Shown here piece after piece: positions 8,275-61,134 of a stretch of 61,134 bases of DNA (positions within the stretch are counted from its first letter, which is position 1; each line of letters begins with the position of its first letter). The notes below the pieces were generated by a model. That model was not told the origin of the DNA and did no database searches. It worked only from the letters and a program-made list of their open reading frames with translations. A program made the translations under genes and the position numbers. The DNA is from Oscillospiraceae bacterium (GTDB lineage Bacteria; Bacillota; Clostridia; Oscillospirales; CAG-272), in NCBI GenBank assembly GCA_015063745.1, contig SVTO01000011.1:1-61134 (forward strand). The letters run 5' to 3'.

Positions 8275-8280
8275 ATATCA

Positions 8281-8546
8281 AATGCTATGATCAGAAGAAG
8301 TATCCATACCGTAGCTGCCAAGAGAGACGGCGGGTGGTGTGAGCCGGAGAGCAGGGTGGAGAAATACATCTGTGAGCAGCGCACCGAACGGACTTTTCCC
8401 AGTAGGCTGCGACGGGCGTTCCCGTTACCGGACTGCGGCATCATCGCCGTGTGAGACCGTTTGCCGGAAAGCAGCGGTAAATTGAGGTGGTACCACGGTT
8501 TTCCCGTCCTCTGAGTCCTTGGTGGCTGCAGAGGCGTTTTTATTTT
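8281..8546 (+). ncRNA. T-box riboswitch, probable tyrosine (UAC) specifier
   Basis: Stem I carries AGTA (8299-8302), the apical AGAGAGACGGCGGGTGG block (from 8321) and a specifier loop GAAATACA (8361-8368). The following TCTG pairs with CAGA at 8292-8295. This puts the codon TAC at 8365-8367, i.e. tyrosine. A GACGGG/CCCGTT stem follows. The T-box is GAGGTGGTACCACGG (8484-8498), then CCGTCCTCTGAGTCC. The bulge TGGT matches a tRNA ending ACCA, so discriminator A, which fits tRNA-Tyr. The terminator CCTCTG/CAGAGG plus T-run ends near 8546. The specifier reading is tentative; the T-box class itself is clear. Confidence 0.9.
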
Positions 8547-8565: not shown

Positions 8566-10200
8566 ATGGTTATTACAGAATTGCTGGAAAAAAATGCAAA
8601 ATTATACCCGAATGACGTGGCGCTGGTGGAAGTCAATCCTGCCGCACAGCCCAAGCCCAACCAGACCTGGCGTGAATACAGCCTGATCGAAACAACCCCC
8701 GGCGGACGTTACCGCAGAGAAATGACATGGAAGGATTTTGATACTAAAGCCAACCGTTTCGCCAATCTTCTGCTCACCAGAAAGATCAAAAAGGGCGACA
8801 AGGTGGCAATCCTGCTGATGAACTGCCTGGAATGGCTGCCCATCTATTTCGGTATCCTGAAGACCGGCGCACTGGCGGTTCCCATGAACTACCGTTATAC
8901 CGGCGAGGAAATCAAATACTGTGCGGAACTGGCCGATGTGGATGTGCTGATCTTCGGTGAAGAATTCATCGACCGTGTGGAATCCGTATACAAGGATCTG
9001 CCCAGAGTCAGAGACTGGTTCTATGTAGGCCCCAATGCACCGGAATTTACCGACAGCTATGACGAAATGGTAACCTACTGTTCCTCCATCGCACCCGCTG
9101 TGCCTCTGGAAGAGGAAGAGGATGCCGCCATTTACTTCTCCTCCGGTACCACCGGTTTCCCGAAGGCAATTCTGCATTCCCATACATCCCTGATCAACTC
9201 CTGCCGTACCGAGCAGAATCACCACAGCCAGACCCGTGACGACGTGTTCCTGTGCATCCCGCCCCTGTACCATACCGGCGCGAAAATGCACTGGTTCGGC
9301 AGCCTCCTTTCCGGAAGCAAAGCCGTTATTCTCCGCGGTGTACAGCCGGAATGGGTTCTGCGTGCTGTGTCCGAAGAAGGCTGTACGATAGTATGGCTGC
9401 TGGTGCCGTGGGCACAGGATATTCTGGACGCCATTGACAGAGGCGAATTGAACCTGGACGACTACAGACTATCCCAGTGGCGGCTTATGCACGTAGGTGC
9501 CCAGCCCGTTCCGCCGTCCCTGATCAAGCGCTGGAAGAAGGTATTCCCGAATCATGATTACGACACCAACTACGGTCTGTCCGAATCCATCGGCCCCGGC
9601 TGCGTACATCTGGGTGTGGAAAACATCCATAAGGTAGGCGCCATCGGTGTGGCCGGCCACCTGTGGGAAACCGAAATCGTTCACCCCGACGGAACGCCCG
9701 TGGAAGGGGACGATGTAGGAGAACTGATCGTTCGCGGCCCCGGTGTGATGAAGTGTTATTATAAGAACCCCGAAGCCACCGCCGAAATTCTGAAGGACGG
9801 CTGGCTGTACACAGGGGACATGGCCAAGCGTGACGAAGACGGCTTTATCTATCTGGTAGACCGTAAGAAGGACGTTATCATCACGGGCGGTGAAAACCTG
9901 TATCCCGTGCAGATCGAAGATTTCCTCCGTCAGCATGACAAGATCAAGGACGTAGCCGTAATCGGTCTGCCCGACGAACGTCTGGGTGAAATTGCGGCGG
10001 CCATCATCGAGATCAAGCCCGACATGACCTGCACGGAAGAAGAAATCAACGCTTTCTGCATGGATATGCCCCGCTACAAGCGTCCGAGAAAGATCATCTT
10101 CGCAGATGTTCCCAGAAACCCCACCGGCAAGATCGAAAAGCCGAGACTGCGCGAAATCTACTGCGGCAAGCGCCTGGTGGAAGCGCAGACAACAAAGTAA
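8566..10200 (+). CDS. class I adenylate-forming acyl-CoA ligase under T-box control
   Basis: 544 residues from the ATG at 8566, preceded by TTGAGG. All ANL-superfamily core motifs are present: IYFSSGTTGFPKA (about 189-201, phosphate loop), YGLSES (about 335), GWLYTGDMAKRDEDGF (about 412-427), and PTGKIEKP with the catalytic lysine near the C-terminus. The reaction is acid + ATP + CoA to acyl-CoA via an acyl-AMP. It resembles medium-chain, aromatic or carnitine-type CoA ligases; the substrate is not readable from sequence. It is the only gene between the T-box and a terminator at 10207, so the T-box must act on it. An amino-acid-linked acid substrate is an inference from that regulation. Confidence 0.9.
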   Translation: MVITELLEKNAKLYPNDVALVEVNPAAQPKPNQTWREYSLIETTPGGRYRREMTWKDFDTKANRFANLLLTRKIKKGDKVAILLMNCLEWLPIYFGILKTGALAVPMNYRYTGEEIKYCAELADVDVLIFGEEFIDRVESVYKDLPRVRDWFYVGPNAPEFTDSYDEMVTYCSSIAPAVPLEEEEDAAIYFSSGTTGFPKAILHSHTSLINSCRTEQNHHSQTRDDVFLCIPPLYHTGAKMHWFGSLLSGSKAVILRGVQPEWVLRAVSEEGCTIVWLLVPWAQDILDAIDRGELNLDDYRLSQWRLMHVGAQPVPPSLIKRWKKVFPNHDYDTNYGLSESIGPGCVHLGVENIHKVGAIGVAGHLWETEIVHPDGTPVEGDDVGELIVRGPGVMKCYYKNPEATAEILKDGWLYTGDMAKRDEDGFIYLVDRKKDVIITGGENLYPVQIEDFLRQHDKIKDVAVIGLPDERLGEIAAAIIEIKPDMTCTEEEINAFCMDMPRYKRPRKIIFADVPRNPTGKIEKPRLREIYCGKRLVEAQTTK

Positions 10201-22539: not shown

Positions 22540-22735
22540 AGCATCTGTACGTTTCACAAGGCAGGTATCCCGGCTGATGCAGCTCCCGGACACCTTCCCA
22601 TCCGTCAGGACAGTGGCAAATACGTATGGCGGCATACGCTTGTCCGGGATCATGCACAATCACGGTGACGGGCTCGCACAGGATTTTCACCTGTTTCCGG
22701 TTTGAACCGTAAGGTACCTTGCGGCGGAATGATCC
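22540..22735 (-). ncRNA. cobalamin (AdoCbl-type) riboswitch
   Basis: On the minus strand the conserved blocks occur in order: AAGGTACC near the start, GTGAAAATCCTGTGCGAGCC (around 22690-22671), CCCGTCACC, GCCACTG (22617-22611), GACGGATGGGAAGGTG, and the B12 box CAGCCGGGATACCTGCC (about 22576-22560). These are class-defining. It precedes the DUF4430 lipoprotein and S component, so excess cobalamin should shut off uptake genes. Confidence 0.95.
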
Positions 22736-22743
22736 ACGAGATT

Positions 22744-22989: not shown

Positions 22990-23096
22990 ATAGACTTTCT
23001 GTGACTGACGGTTAAGCGAGAAATCGCTGCGGGAGCACCTGCGTGGAGCAGAAAGTGACGAAGCATATACTGCTTCAGCCGACCGTCTGGGCATTG
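22990..23096 (+). ncRNA. ZTP (pfl) riboswitch
   Basis: The 5' block GTGACTGACGGT (23001-23012) and 3' block CCGACCGTCTGGGCA (23079-23093) match the CUGGCGG...CCGCCUGGGCA framework. GACGGT and ACCGTC are exact complements, giving the pseudoknot with a compensated base change. GGGAGCACCTGCGTGGAGCA in between resembles the conserved inner domain. ZTP signals 10-formyl-THF shortage and turns on purine and folate genes, which fits purE downstream. I could not identify the terminator of the expression platform with confidence. Confidence 0.85.
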
Positions 23097-23204
23097 TTTT
23101 GTTTATCATACAGAGAAACTGTGTATAGCAAAGCTTTGTCCTTTTTTGATTTTTGACGTACAAACCAAAATATATAACTCCGAATTTGAGAAAGAGGTAT
23201 GCCC

Positions 23205-58977: not shown

Positions 58978-60057
58978 TCATCCCGCAGTGCCGCAGCTGC
59001 CGCGTTCGACCAGGGAAGGCGCAAACATCTTCACAAACGGATCGTAATGTTCTTTACGGATCATATCCAGCAATGTTTCGGCGGCGAGAGTACCCAGTTT
59101 TTCCTTGGGGTGGGCAATCGTGGTAAGCGGCGGAACGCAGGCGGAAGCCAGAACGGAATCGTCGTATCCAAAGACGGAGATATCTTCCGGCACACGGAAA
59201 CCGTTGTTCTGGAGAATCCGGATACATTCCACAGCGACTTCATCATTGTAGCAGAAAATACCGGTAATCCCCTGCGCCTTCAGAATATCCATAAAACCGG
59301 TATCGGCAATACCCTTAGCGGGATCATAGGGAAGAAGAACGGGAGCTTCCGCAGACATTTCCTCACAAGCCCGGCAGAAACCGATTTTACGCTGTACGGA
59401 ATCCTTGTAGCCGTCCACATAAGCGACCATGGTTTTCTTATGTCCGAGGCCATGGAGGTATTCGGCCACCAGATAACCGCCGCGGTATTCATCCAGGATC
59501 AGATAGGATGCATCCTGAATATCGTACATGCAGTCGATCATGATGCAGGGAATACCCGCATGGCGATACATACGGAAACATTCCTCCAGTTCGTGGGAGG
59601 GCGCTTCATCGATATGGCTGGGCTGCAGAATAACGCCGTCCGTACCTTTTTCGTAGATATTTCTGAGAAGACTGCAGATTTCCGAGGTACTGTTTTTGCT
59701 GTCGCTGATGATAAAATTACAGCCGCCTGCTTTCAGAACTGCGGAAATACTTTTGATATAATAGGGGATAAAATAGGTATCCTCCATATCGAGGATTACG
59801 TCGATATTGAGCATATCATCGGCACTGAAGCTGCTTTTGCAGAAGGTACCTCTGCCATGTTCTTTTGCGAGGTATCCTTTATTGACAAGCTGAGCAAGAG
59901 CCTGGCGGACAGTAAGCCGTCCGATATCATAAGCCCGCATCATTTCGGATTCGCTGAGCAATTTATCGCCCGGGTTGATCTCGCCGGCCAGGATCTGGCG
60001 TTTGATTTCCTCAGCCAGCTGACAATACAGCGGTACATGACTATTCCGATCCAGCAT
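58978..60057 (-). CDS. GntR-LacI chimeric repressor (AraR-type)
   Basis: 359 residues. The N-terminal GntR winged HTH (about 5-70) has VPLYCQLAEEIKRQILAGEI and SESEMMRAYDIGRLTVRQAL. The C-terminal LacI-like periplasmic-binding domain (about 85-355) has GTDGVILQPSHID, CIMIDCMYD and DISVFGYDDSVLASACVPPL. This AraR architecture responds to a sugar. GGAG precedes the ATG at 60057. It lies 114 bp upstream of the GH4 gene, same strand. Confidence 0.94.
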   Translation of the reverse strand: MLDRNSHVPLYCQLAEEIKRQILAGEINPGDKLLSESEMMRAYDIGRLTVRQALAQLVNKGYLAKEHGRGTFCKSSFSADDMLNIDVILDMEDTYFIPYYIKSISAVLKAGGCNFIISDSKNSTSEICSLLRNIYEKGTDGVILQPSHIDEAPSHELEECFRMYRHAGIPCIMIDCMYDIQDASYLILDEYRGGYLVAEYLHGLGHKKTMVAYVDGYKDSVQRKIGFCRACEEMSAEAPVLLPYDPAKGIADTGFMDILKAQGITGIFCYNDEVAVECIRILQNNGFRVPEDISVFGYDDSVLASACVPPLTTIAHPKEKLGTLAAETLLDMIRKEHYDPFVKMFAPSLVERGSCGTAG

Positions 60058-60135: not shown

Positions 60136-60185
60136 GGAGGGGAAATGGTTTGTGTGGATTTATCTTACATTTTTTGTTCTATTTG

Positions 60186-60360
60186 TTTGCTGCTCGATGA
60201 GTTGTGCAGGGGAATTCTTTTTTTGTCCTTGGCGGACATGCGGTTTTTTACTATTCTTTGTGTGGCTGAATCGATTCTTTATTTTTGTCCTTGGCAGACG
60301 GCTATTTTTTTACTACTCGATGAATCTTGCTATCGTTTATTTTTTGTGTCCTGTGCGGAC
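60186..60360 (-). repeat. left tandem array of degenerate units of about 61 bp
   Basis: TTTRCTRYTC boxes start at 60186, 60247 and 60309 and are followed by hairpins GTCC-N5-GGAC or a close variant, starting at 60225, 60287 and 60348. The period is 61-62 bp. A poly-T stretch precedes each GTCC box. Confidence 0.8.
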
Positions 60361-60412
60361 GGCACTTAGAGAGGCCTGCAGACGCGAGGCCCCTCTAAGA
60401 ACTCCCCCGCTT
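60346..60412 (+). repeat. 67-bp inverted repeat, left copy
   Basis: The reverse complement of 60971-61037, with one difference (A at 60382 against the complement of C). It contains its own hairpin, CTTAGAG-GGCCT with AGGCC-CTCTAAG (60365-60399), and ends in ACTCCCCCGCTT. Confidence 0.93.
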
Positions 60413-60479
60413 TATTAAGAGCTACGTTGGTCCGGTGTTTGGTGTTAGTGTTTCAAAGTAGTGGAGGATGCAAATCAGC

Positions 60480-60902
60480 GCTGACCGCGGTAGGGGTGCA
60501 TTAGTGGAGGAATACTGTTGGGATTAGGGAAGGTTTAGCCGTGTACAGTGATATAGTCTGGGTGCACTCTCATTCGTGCTAACCGCGCGAAGACTGTACG
60601 GCAGTCCTAAGACATGGCGGTCAGCCGAAATTTATAATGCACCCAACCTTGTACTGTAGGCAGACCCACCCTTAGAATATCAACCTGTCAGCGGTCAAAC
60701 TCCCCTATTCATCCGCGGCAGCCTGATTAAAAAGAAACTCAACTACTGAACCCAACCAAATCCCAACCAATAACCTCTCCCAACGCACCAAGCGGCAGCC
60801 AAATTCTTTCTGCACGGCACATTCTTCTGTGCACAAACCCACTTTTCCACAAAACGAACCGTCAACTGTATGCCAAAACTAATGCACCCTCCGGCGGTTA
60901 GC
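60480..60902. repeat. central dyads built from two recurring words
   Basis: The words GCTRACCGC and GGGTGCAYT occur as pairs at 60480-60505 and 60560-60586 (forward) and at 60617-60644 and 60878-60902 (inverted). The inner two pairs form a stem around the hairpin GACTG-TACGG-CAGTC (60592-60606). Confidence 0.75.
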
Positions 60903-60970
60903 CATAATTGAAAAACGAACCTGCTAAACCCAAAGAATCGCCCGACCCAAAAACCTCAACCCTTCCACCT

Positions 60971-61037
60971 AAGCGGGGGAGTTCTTAGAGGGGCCTCGCG
61001 CCTGCAGGCCTCTCTAAGTGCCGTCCGCACAGGACAC
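60971..61037 (-). repeat. 67-bp inverted repeat, right copy
   Basis: Mirror of the left copy, 66 of 67 positions identical. Similarity continues outward through ACAAAAAAT-AACGAT before drifting. Its hairpin spans 60984-61018. Confidence 0.93.
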
Positions 61038-61134
61038 AAAAAATGAACGATTTGCACGATACAAAGAGTAGTAAAAGAACCAACATCAACATAGGACAAA
61101 AAATAAACGACAGCACAACTCAAAGAGTAGTAAA
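61024..61134 (+). repeat. right tandem array of degenerate units of about 59 bp
   Basis: GAGTAGTAAA boxes at 61066-61075 and 61125-61134 end two units, each with AGGACA-AAAAAT-AACGA. They are inverted relative to the left array. The window stops exactly at the end of a box, so the array may continue. Confidence 0.8.

Follow-up and report, generated by a model that had tools for sequence, protein, structure and literature searches.

The window, by which we mean the whole 61,134-nt stretch analyzed here (contig SVTO01000011.1 of the Oscillospiraceae bacterium assembly GCA_015063745.1), holds at positions 60150-61134 one copy of a genus-specific family of dispersed, intergenic, multicopy repeats. 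In this family, two inverted half-sites with conserved hairpins face each other across a core, and the copies recombine with one another. We read the family, with moderate confidence, as a giant non-coding repeat resembling REPINs (doublets of repetitive extragenic palindromic [REP] sequences) and bacterial interspersed mosaic elements (BIMEs), one that spreads in trans and is homogenized by gene conversion. The original prediction, made from the sequence alone, had described a single composite element; the genome search that it proposed uncovered many further copies instead.

An inverted pair of half-sites and its copies in the genome

The inverted block was exactly as originally described: 60346-60412 matches the reverse complement of 60971-61037 over 67 nt with one difference (A/G at 60382), and the inverted pair extends to 81 nt at 98% complementarity, its arms lying 558 nt apart. 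Also borne out were a hairpin inside each 67-bp copy (60365-60399 and 60984-61018, read from the sequence) and similarity running outward into tandem repeats, which are spaced by ~60 nt (D1, D2, and D4) and lie outside the inverted pair on both sides. On the plus strand, the left part comprises a T-rich outer array of ~60-nt units (TTTTTGTCC..GGAC..TTTACTACTC..; 60170-60347, outer limit approximate, with D1 at 60220-60256/60282-60318), the mini-hairpin P0 (GTCC-TGTGC-GGAC; 60348-60360), the 13-bp hairpin P2 with one A.C mismatch and its loop at 60378-60386 (60365-60399), and the strand P3 (60400-60412), which the inverted-repeat comparison showed to be complementary to its right counterpart. 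The right part, on the minus strand, has P3 at 60971-60983, P2 at 60984-61018, P0 at 61023-61035 (read directly and recovered by an end-pattern scan), and an A-rich outer array of ~60-nt units at 61036-61134 (repeats D2 and D4). This array is truncated by the contig end, which falls inside the element, and the left CTCTCTACGG end is not present in the window copy. The core between the arms (60413-60970, 558 nt, no strand assigned) contains no open reading frame (ORF) of at least 60 aa, in line with the earlier remark that no ORF of substance was present. RNA folding of 60332-61051 gave z = -15.9 (20 shuffles).

In the draft genome (G000; 2.44 Mb, 81 contigs, 82% complete) that includes the window as contig C5, the query 60150-61134 returned 88 matching pieces. 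Thirteen of these, the window's own place excluded, were at least 700 nt long at 84-91% identity, and 28 stretches around the matches were taken for reading. The copies read were intergenic, and some contigs break within a copy. Copies with both arms and different flanks lie inside other contigs, so the element is a dispersed repeat and not an inverted duplication created at a contig end, an assembly artifact that had been considered at the outset and is ruled out. The interior had been thought diverged and decayed, a view that the other copies overturned: across 12 aligned own-genome copies the core, with its mosaic variants, was 86% identical (lowest pair 81%), and the arms were 96% and 99% identical. 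From outside to inside, own-genome copies show an A/T-rich end (CTCTCTACGG or its complement, in several copies), one to three ~60-nt units, a half-site, and the ~558-nt core, with differences among copies. The half-site is ordered as P0 (GTCC-TGTGC-GGAC), GGCAC, P2 (the 13-bp hairpin), and AACTCCCCCGCTT (P3). Terminal inverted repeats of the kind expected of miniature inverted-repeat transposable elements (MITEs), CTCTCTACGG..CCGTAGAGAG, were present at several copies, and several copies, judged by eye, adjoin terminator-like hairpins, a possible sign of insertion at terminators. Four own-genome places (L031, at G000:C15:1-250, together with L033, L034, and L035) matched the 60-nt-unit part only, some of them at contig ends.

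Covariation and complementarity within the half-site

A search for structural covariation, as originally suggested, found that P2 covaries strongly. In an alignment of 36 half-sites from six genomes, 98.7% of 385 P2 cells were paired and 9 of the 11 pairs had changed on both sides, with 80 double-change cells compared to a shuffled mean of 20 (0/500 shuffles). As a control, sliding the partner by 1-3 columns lowered pairing to 38-58%. The count of pairs with changes on both sides was not significant taken alone (62/500 shuffles), nor was the number of further pair types (349/500). Mismatches in the inward-reading strand amounted to 7 GT/TG, 33 AC/CA, and 1 TT among 1,318 cells (120 distinct rows), and the same bias appeared when counted as genome-by-position events (15 A.C versus 4 G.T, all 150 rows). 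This excess of A.C over G.T would favor the outward strand as the acting strand, whereas pairs with a 5' pyrimidine lean toward the opposite strand and outer hairpins have, by eye, TTCG loops in the inward strand; since these cues oppose each other, no strand of action is concluded.

In P0, the stem sequence varies among relatives while pairing is kept. Stems were GTCC, TCCC, CCAC or CAC, CGCC or GCC, or CCCC in 118/120 scored cases, and the loop was TRYGC in 119/120. The 120 of 222 distinct half-sites in which the P0 finder detected pairing represent a lower bound, with plainly paired own-genome P0s among the 102 unscored.

The P2 loop was complementary to its own P3 over a mean run of 4.10 nt, compared to 3.32 (sd 0.12) in within-genome shuffles (0/1,000 as high), a design that replaced an earlier shuffle lacking control for relatedness. 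This comparison used 50 distinct loops from 7 genomes, after loops of >16 nt and genomes with <4 distinct loops were dropped. Loop/P3 pairs included GTCGCCG/CGGCGAC, GTTGC/GCAAC, GGTCG/CGACC, GAGCG/CGCTC, and TGTGG/CCACA; the window copy has GCG/CGC only (3 nt). Such complementarity suggests that the half-site may form a pseudoknotted single strand, through an H-type or equivalent contact. In copies from two other genomes of the genus, G004 and G022, the spacers between hairpins of the two arms look mutually complementary by eye, and the hairpins are local to each arm, so that the arms look like a ladder with the spacers as putative rungs and the hairpins as side arms. Whole-element RNA folding of a G022 copy gave z = -11.5 (100 shuffles). 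Two G004 loci (L086, 3912-3980, and L213, 680-763) carry P2 hairpins with an extra inserted hairpin of the GGAGTTCACGAAGTGAACTCC type, a hairpin within a hairpin.

Distribution among relatives

A DNA search of 59 relatives matched three, namely the own genome, G008 (a 520-nt form), and G009 (ends only); the G008 copies that were read showed no adjoining 60-nt units. The exact end pattern occurred in 3 of 25 genus genomes (drafts, one per species), and a backward control gave 0 hits. A looser pattern run over a genome contig collection returned 51 stretches, 46 of which came from metagenome-assembled genomes (MAGs) of gut Clostridia/Oscillospiraceae (SIG618, SIG711, RGIG4573, RGIG7288, RGIG2226, and SIG442); the matches in the other five (Kineosporia, Actinomycetota, Betaproteobacteria, a Deltaproteobacteria MAG, and Clostridiaceae strain 9) were unlike the half-site. 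One SIG711 locus (L104, 5266-5328) has a lone P0-P2-P0' palindrome that lacks both P3 and the core and may be what remains once the core between the arms has been lost.

Covariance model R1, which describes the half-site (P0, P2, and P3), recovered the family in 15 of the 25 genomes of this animal-gut genus at E<=0.001, with 2-88 half-sites each, and found none in the other 10. Counts were highest in G012 (88), G004 (86), G013 (84), and G022 (63), followed by G016 (49), G011 (44), G009 (40), G007 (38), the own genome (37), G019 (31), G003 (22), G008 (17), G005 (16), G017 (10), and G001 (2). Inward-facing pairs within 1 kb were formed by 166 of 228 half-sites, and 62 were not so paired. Across the bacterial family, 11/196 genomes matched at E<=0.01, four strongly (G000, G008, G007, and G145) and seven weakly (0.0028-0.006), while in the class the own genome was the single match at E<=1e-4 among 391 sampled genomes; these large samples were scored with stricter filters, under which distant forms may be missed. 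The G145 match (L149, G145:C60, ~10045-10107; 8e-10) is a single well-matching half-site from outside the genus but within the family, and reflects either transfer or MAG contamination. No match to 60332-61051 was found in phages or plasmids (distant blastn, E<=1e-5), and the end pattern occurred in 0 stretches of viral contigs. On these searches, a phage or plasmid origin is rejected.

Shared positions and concerted evolution

Element positions were compared between species where both flanks could be matched, in sampled parts of the target genomes. From G004 to G022, 17 of 38 positions were comparable, with the element present at 11 and absent at 6, and in the reverse direction 16 of 32 were comparable, with 12 present and 4 absent. 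Fewer positions could be compared from G004 to G013 (3/38, two with the element), G016 to G004 (3/4, one with it), and G007 to G004 (2/12, none with it); no G009 position was comparable with G004 or G022, and of 23 own-genome positions, none could be matched on both sides to what was sampled of G004 or G022. Six of the 10 empty G004/G022 places were read, and in most the flanks continue without the element. One of them (L243, 1910-2142) keeps core-like stretches and may be a remnant and not a never-filled site, and another (L208, 2815) was scored across a 3.8-kb gap. The combination of shared and empty positions in G004 and G022 indicates old positions that the two species mostly have in common, modified by gain or loss.

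By gene context, 60 elements were placed as 24 tandem, 17 convergent, 16 divergent, and 3 at an edge, and the frames that overlap other copies were short (92-174 codons) or extensions of neighboring genes; both counts depend on crude ORF calls. In G000, G004, G022, and G009, an element has the same gene as its neighbor, HMGL-like by eye (L014, 3580-4992; L204, 11681-13129; also L214 and L241). Cases in which own-genome copies and relatives have one neighbor gene in common, such as L014 with L204, L214, and L241, are suggestive only.

Copies nevertheless resembled those of their own genome. Among the first 16 copies of each genome, mean identity was 0.80 for G004 and 0.73 for G022; between the two genomes it was 0.54 (10 by 10 copies), and same-position G004/G022 copies had a mean identity of 0.59 (8 pairs, 0.44-0.75). 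A tree of 49 elements from G004, G022, and G013 grouped them by genome, with 3 label changes where the minimum is 2 and the shuffled mean 19.4 (0/200). The nearest neighbor came from the same genome for 48/49 elements and was the ortholog in 0/17 elements that had an ortholog in the set. One exception to the grouping, G022 L273 11080, fell in the G004 clade, subgrouped with its ortholog. Compatibility between neighboring variable sites exceeded that of shuffled site orders in the own genome (0/1,000), G022 (0/1,000), and G004 (13/1,000): the copies are mosaics that recombine with one another. Shared positions and clustering by genome, together with recombination, amount to concerted evolution, most simply explained by gene conversion. 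The near-identical arms had originally been put down to gene conversion, to recent mobility, or to structural selection, and these proposals gained support from recombination, concerted evolution, presence and absence between species, and covariation, except that nothing spoke for the recency of movement.

Proposed mechanism and alternatives

In the mechanism we propose, two inverted half-sites of ~65 nt enclose a core of ~150-800 nt and are flanked by further side hairpins or tandem units. Each half-site probably acts as a folded single strand, P0 followed by a P2 whose loop can pair with the P3 that follows. A putative trans-acting enzyme would recognize this folded half-site, as single-stranded DNA (ssDNA) or RNA, and move the element; copies would then mostly stay put, and host recombination, by gene conversion, would keep rewriting each of them to match the version now current in the genome. 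The stretch around one G004 copy has five strong A-tract/T-tract hairpins resembling bidirectional terminators, four of these at its edges, against 1.3 expected; further G004 and G022 copies show similar ones by eye. The element may thus, secondarily and possibly as a by-product, insulate neighboring genes from each other's transcription.

Several observations weigh against a trans-mobilized, gene-converted repeat. Y1, the one enzyme family tested, showed no association: among 11 Y1_Tnp matches in the 25 draft genus genomes, 0 of the 10 loci examined carry a half-site, and Y1_Tnp occurs in 8/25 genomes, 6 of them among the 15 carriers. Flanking target duplications had been anticipated along with multiple copies if the element were mobile; the copies were found in number, but no target-site duplication was readable at copies or empty places, where A/T-rich ends are fuzzy and flanks diverged. 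A pattern like concerted evolution would also arise if elements had inserted repeatedly and independently at the same sites. The great rarity of G.T intermediates in P2 would be unusual in an RNA subject to normal compensatory selection. Finally, the loop-P3 signal comes mainly from G004 and G022 (0 and 4 of 500 shuffles as high), followed by G007 (18), G009 (24), G013 (39), and G016 (82), and the own genome alone is not significant (132/500).

A link to RAYT/IS200 transposases is not supported: the Y1 loci examined lack half-sites, and the own genome's RAYT has different palindromes, which are REP-like. That RAYT-like gene (195 aa, Y1_Tnp 30 bits) lies at L142 (G000:C13:37173-40421, ~620-1420 and 1453-2040) beside the palindromes GGGAGGATCAAGATCCTCCC and GTAGGGGAGTAGCTTGCTGCTCCC, which are unrelated to the element and ~4.6 kb from one of its copies. 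A more radical version, which we regard as doubtful, is a new class of gene-free element whose copies at ancestral sites would be overwritten in place by structure-guided copying, the pseudoknotted half-sites being recognition ends read as folded single strands. If true, such copying would amount to a non-coding cassette homing to the sites that it had long occupied.

Among explanations without mobility, a functional element present in many copies, either a structured RNA or a cis-regulatory sequence, is possible yet rather unlikely. Its copies would be transcribed or work within untranslated regions, held in place by selection and homogenized as rRNA genes are. It would account for the positions shared between species, the P2 covariation, the loop-P3 complementarity, and the extreme folding of both the window and G022 copies, but the gene contexts are unspecific (24 tandem, 17 convergent, 16 divergent, and 3 edge cases), 6/17 and 4/16 comparable positions are empty in the other species, and the model finds nothing at E<=0.001 in 10/25 genus genomes, where divergence or gaps in the MAGs may be responsible. 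One G004 copy has no promoter-like site, and the window core has a single 10-of-12 promoter match, no more than shuffles give. Rfam offered no credible match. Scans of the window at gathering score and of five loci at E<=5, which cover ROOL, GOLLD, HEARO, and group II introns, gave no gathering-score match over the element, and a known RNA family is rejected on these null results; a 6S match in the flanking DNA to the left of the L086 copy stayed below threshold (30.9 bits, gathering 46.4).

Another explanation is a chromosome element that acts at the level of DNA, as has been proposed for E. coli BIMEs. A cruciform or palindrome bound by gyrase, by a nucleoid protein, or by something similar would suit near-perfect Watson-Crick hairpins with few wobble pairs that lie between genes in every orientation. 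We consider it improbable, given that P2 changes its sequence freely, which leaves no sequence-specific reader of the P2 palindrome, and that loop-P3 complementarity indicates a self-folded strand. The same complementarity, with the conserved P2 junctions, is unpredicted by hairpin correction. It thus makes very unlikely a last alternative, in which the palindromes are selfish, have no reader at all, and keep their perfect hairpins solely through gene conversion and quasi-palindrome correction by template switching, a scheme that fits the block-wise change of P2 with few intermediates and the recombination between copies.

Other features of the window

Between the element and a regulator-like gene (58978-60057, minus strand, named by eye) lies a promoter-like site that matches TTGACA-17-TATAAT at 12/12 positions (60135-60107, minus strand). 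An Rfam scan also placed a T-box leader at 8278-8514 (plus), a cobalamin riboswitch at 22543-22736 (minus), and a ZMP/ZTP riboswitch at 22991-23099 (plus).

Comparison with known systems

BIMEs, which PMC2817692 and PMC3049150 mention, lie between genes. They are mosaics that combine palindromic units with additional motifs, and some attenuate transcription. The element is likewise a mosaic of palindromic units between genes and differs from BIMEs in size, in its loop-P3 half-site, in the terminator-like edges seen in G004, and in taxon. REPINs and REP doublets are described as extragenic, non-coding inverted hairpin doublets that fold in ssDNA or mRNA and persist in many copies; REPs are 20-40 bp long with a GTAG or CGTC end tag, and those of the CGTC type likewise lack a dedicated transposase (PMC3116915, PMC8049555, PMC3733652). 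The present element also consists of hairpin units arranged as inverted doublets in extragenic space. It departs from REPs in several ways: its half-site is ~65 nt long, contains two hairpins, and shows complementarity between loop and P3; hundreds of bases separate the two halves of the doublet; the loci examined revealed no linked Y1/RAYT gene; and shared-position copies evolve in concert. As for the tag, no GTAG was found among the conserved columns beside P2 in the half-site alignment, while CGTC occurs on the complementary strand within P0 where the stem is GTCC or GTCCC, and is lost in CCAC, GCC, and CCCC stems (partly by eye).

Pneumococcal BOX elements, according to PMC3049150, are built of modules A-B-C with a variable number of middle modules, in a short canonical form with 604 and 649 bp forms mentioned. 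They share with the element a modular build, strong folding if transcribed, an intergenic location, no clear target evidence at empty sites, and a Firmicutes host; half-sites of the element's kind do not figure in that description (PMC3049150). In the titles and abstract beginnings of the REP/REPIN, BIME, BOX, and MITE literature searched, no description was recognizable as this element. ROOL, GOLLD, and OLE RNAs have low copy numbers. Like the element they are large and ornate, and ROOL is named for its rumen origin (PMC12286853), but nothing in Rfam matches at the element. Long inverted arms made of sub-repeats also occur in foldback transposons (Tetris, PMC4079207), and two-hairpin mobile units in mitochondrial double-hairpin elements (PMC5910586, PMC4478555); these are eukaryotic or organellar.

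On our best reading, the element is a new type within a known kind, the dispersed extragenic palindromic repeat. What is unusual is the combination of positions shared between species with concerted evolution among dispersed copies, seen in G004, G022, and G013 (with recombination in the own genome as well). Any genome can be scanned with the covariance model, which makes the persistence of a gene-free repeat testable, whether through a trans enzyme, gene conversion, or host use. Bacterial palindromic repeats are mostly short, and this family stands apart from them in being larger and in having a defined folded half-site.
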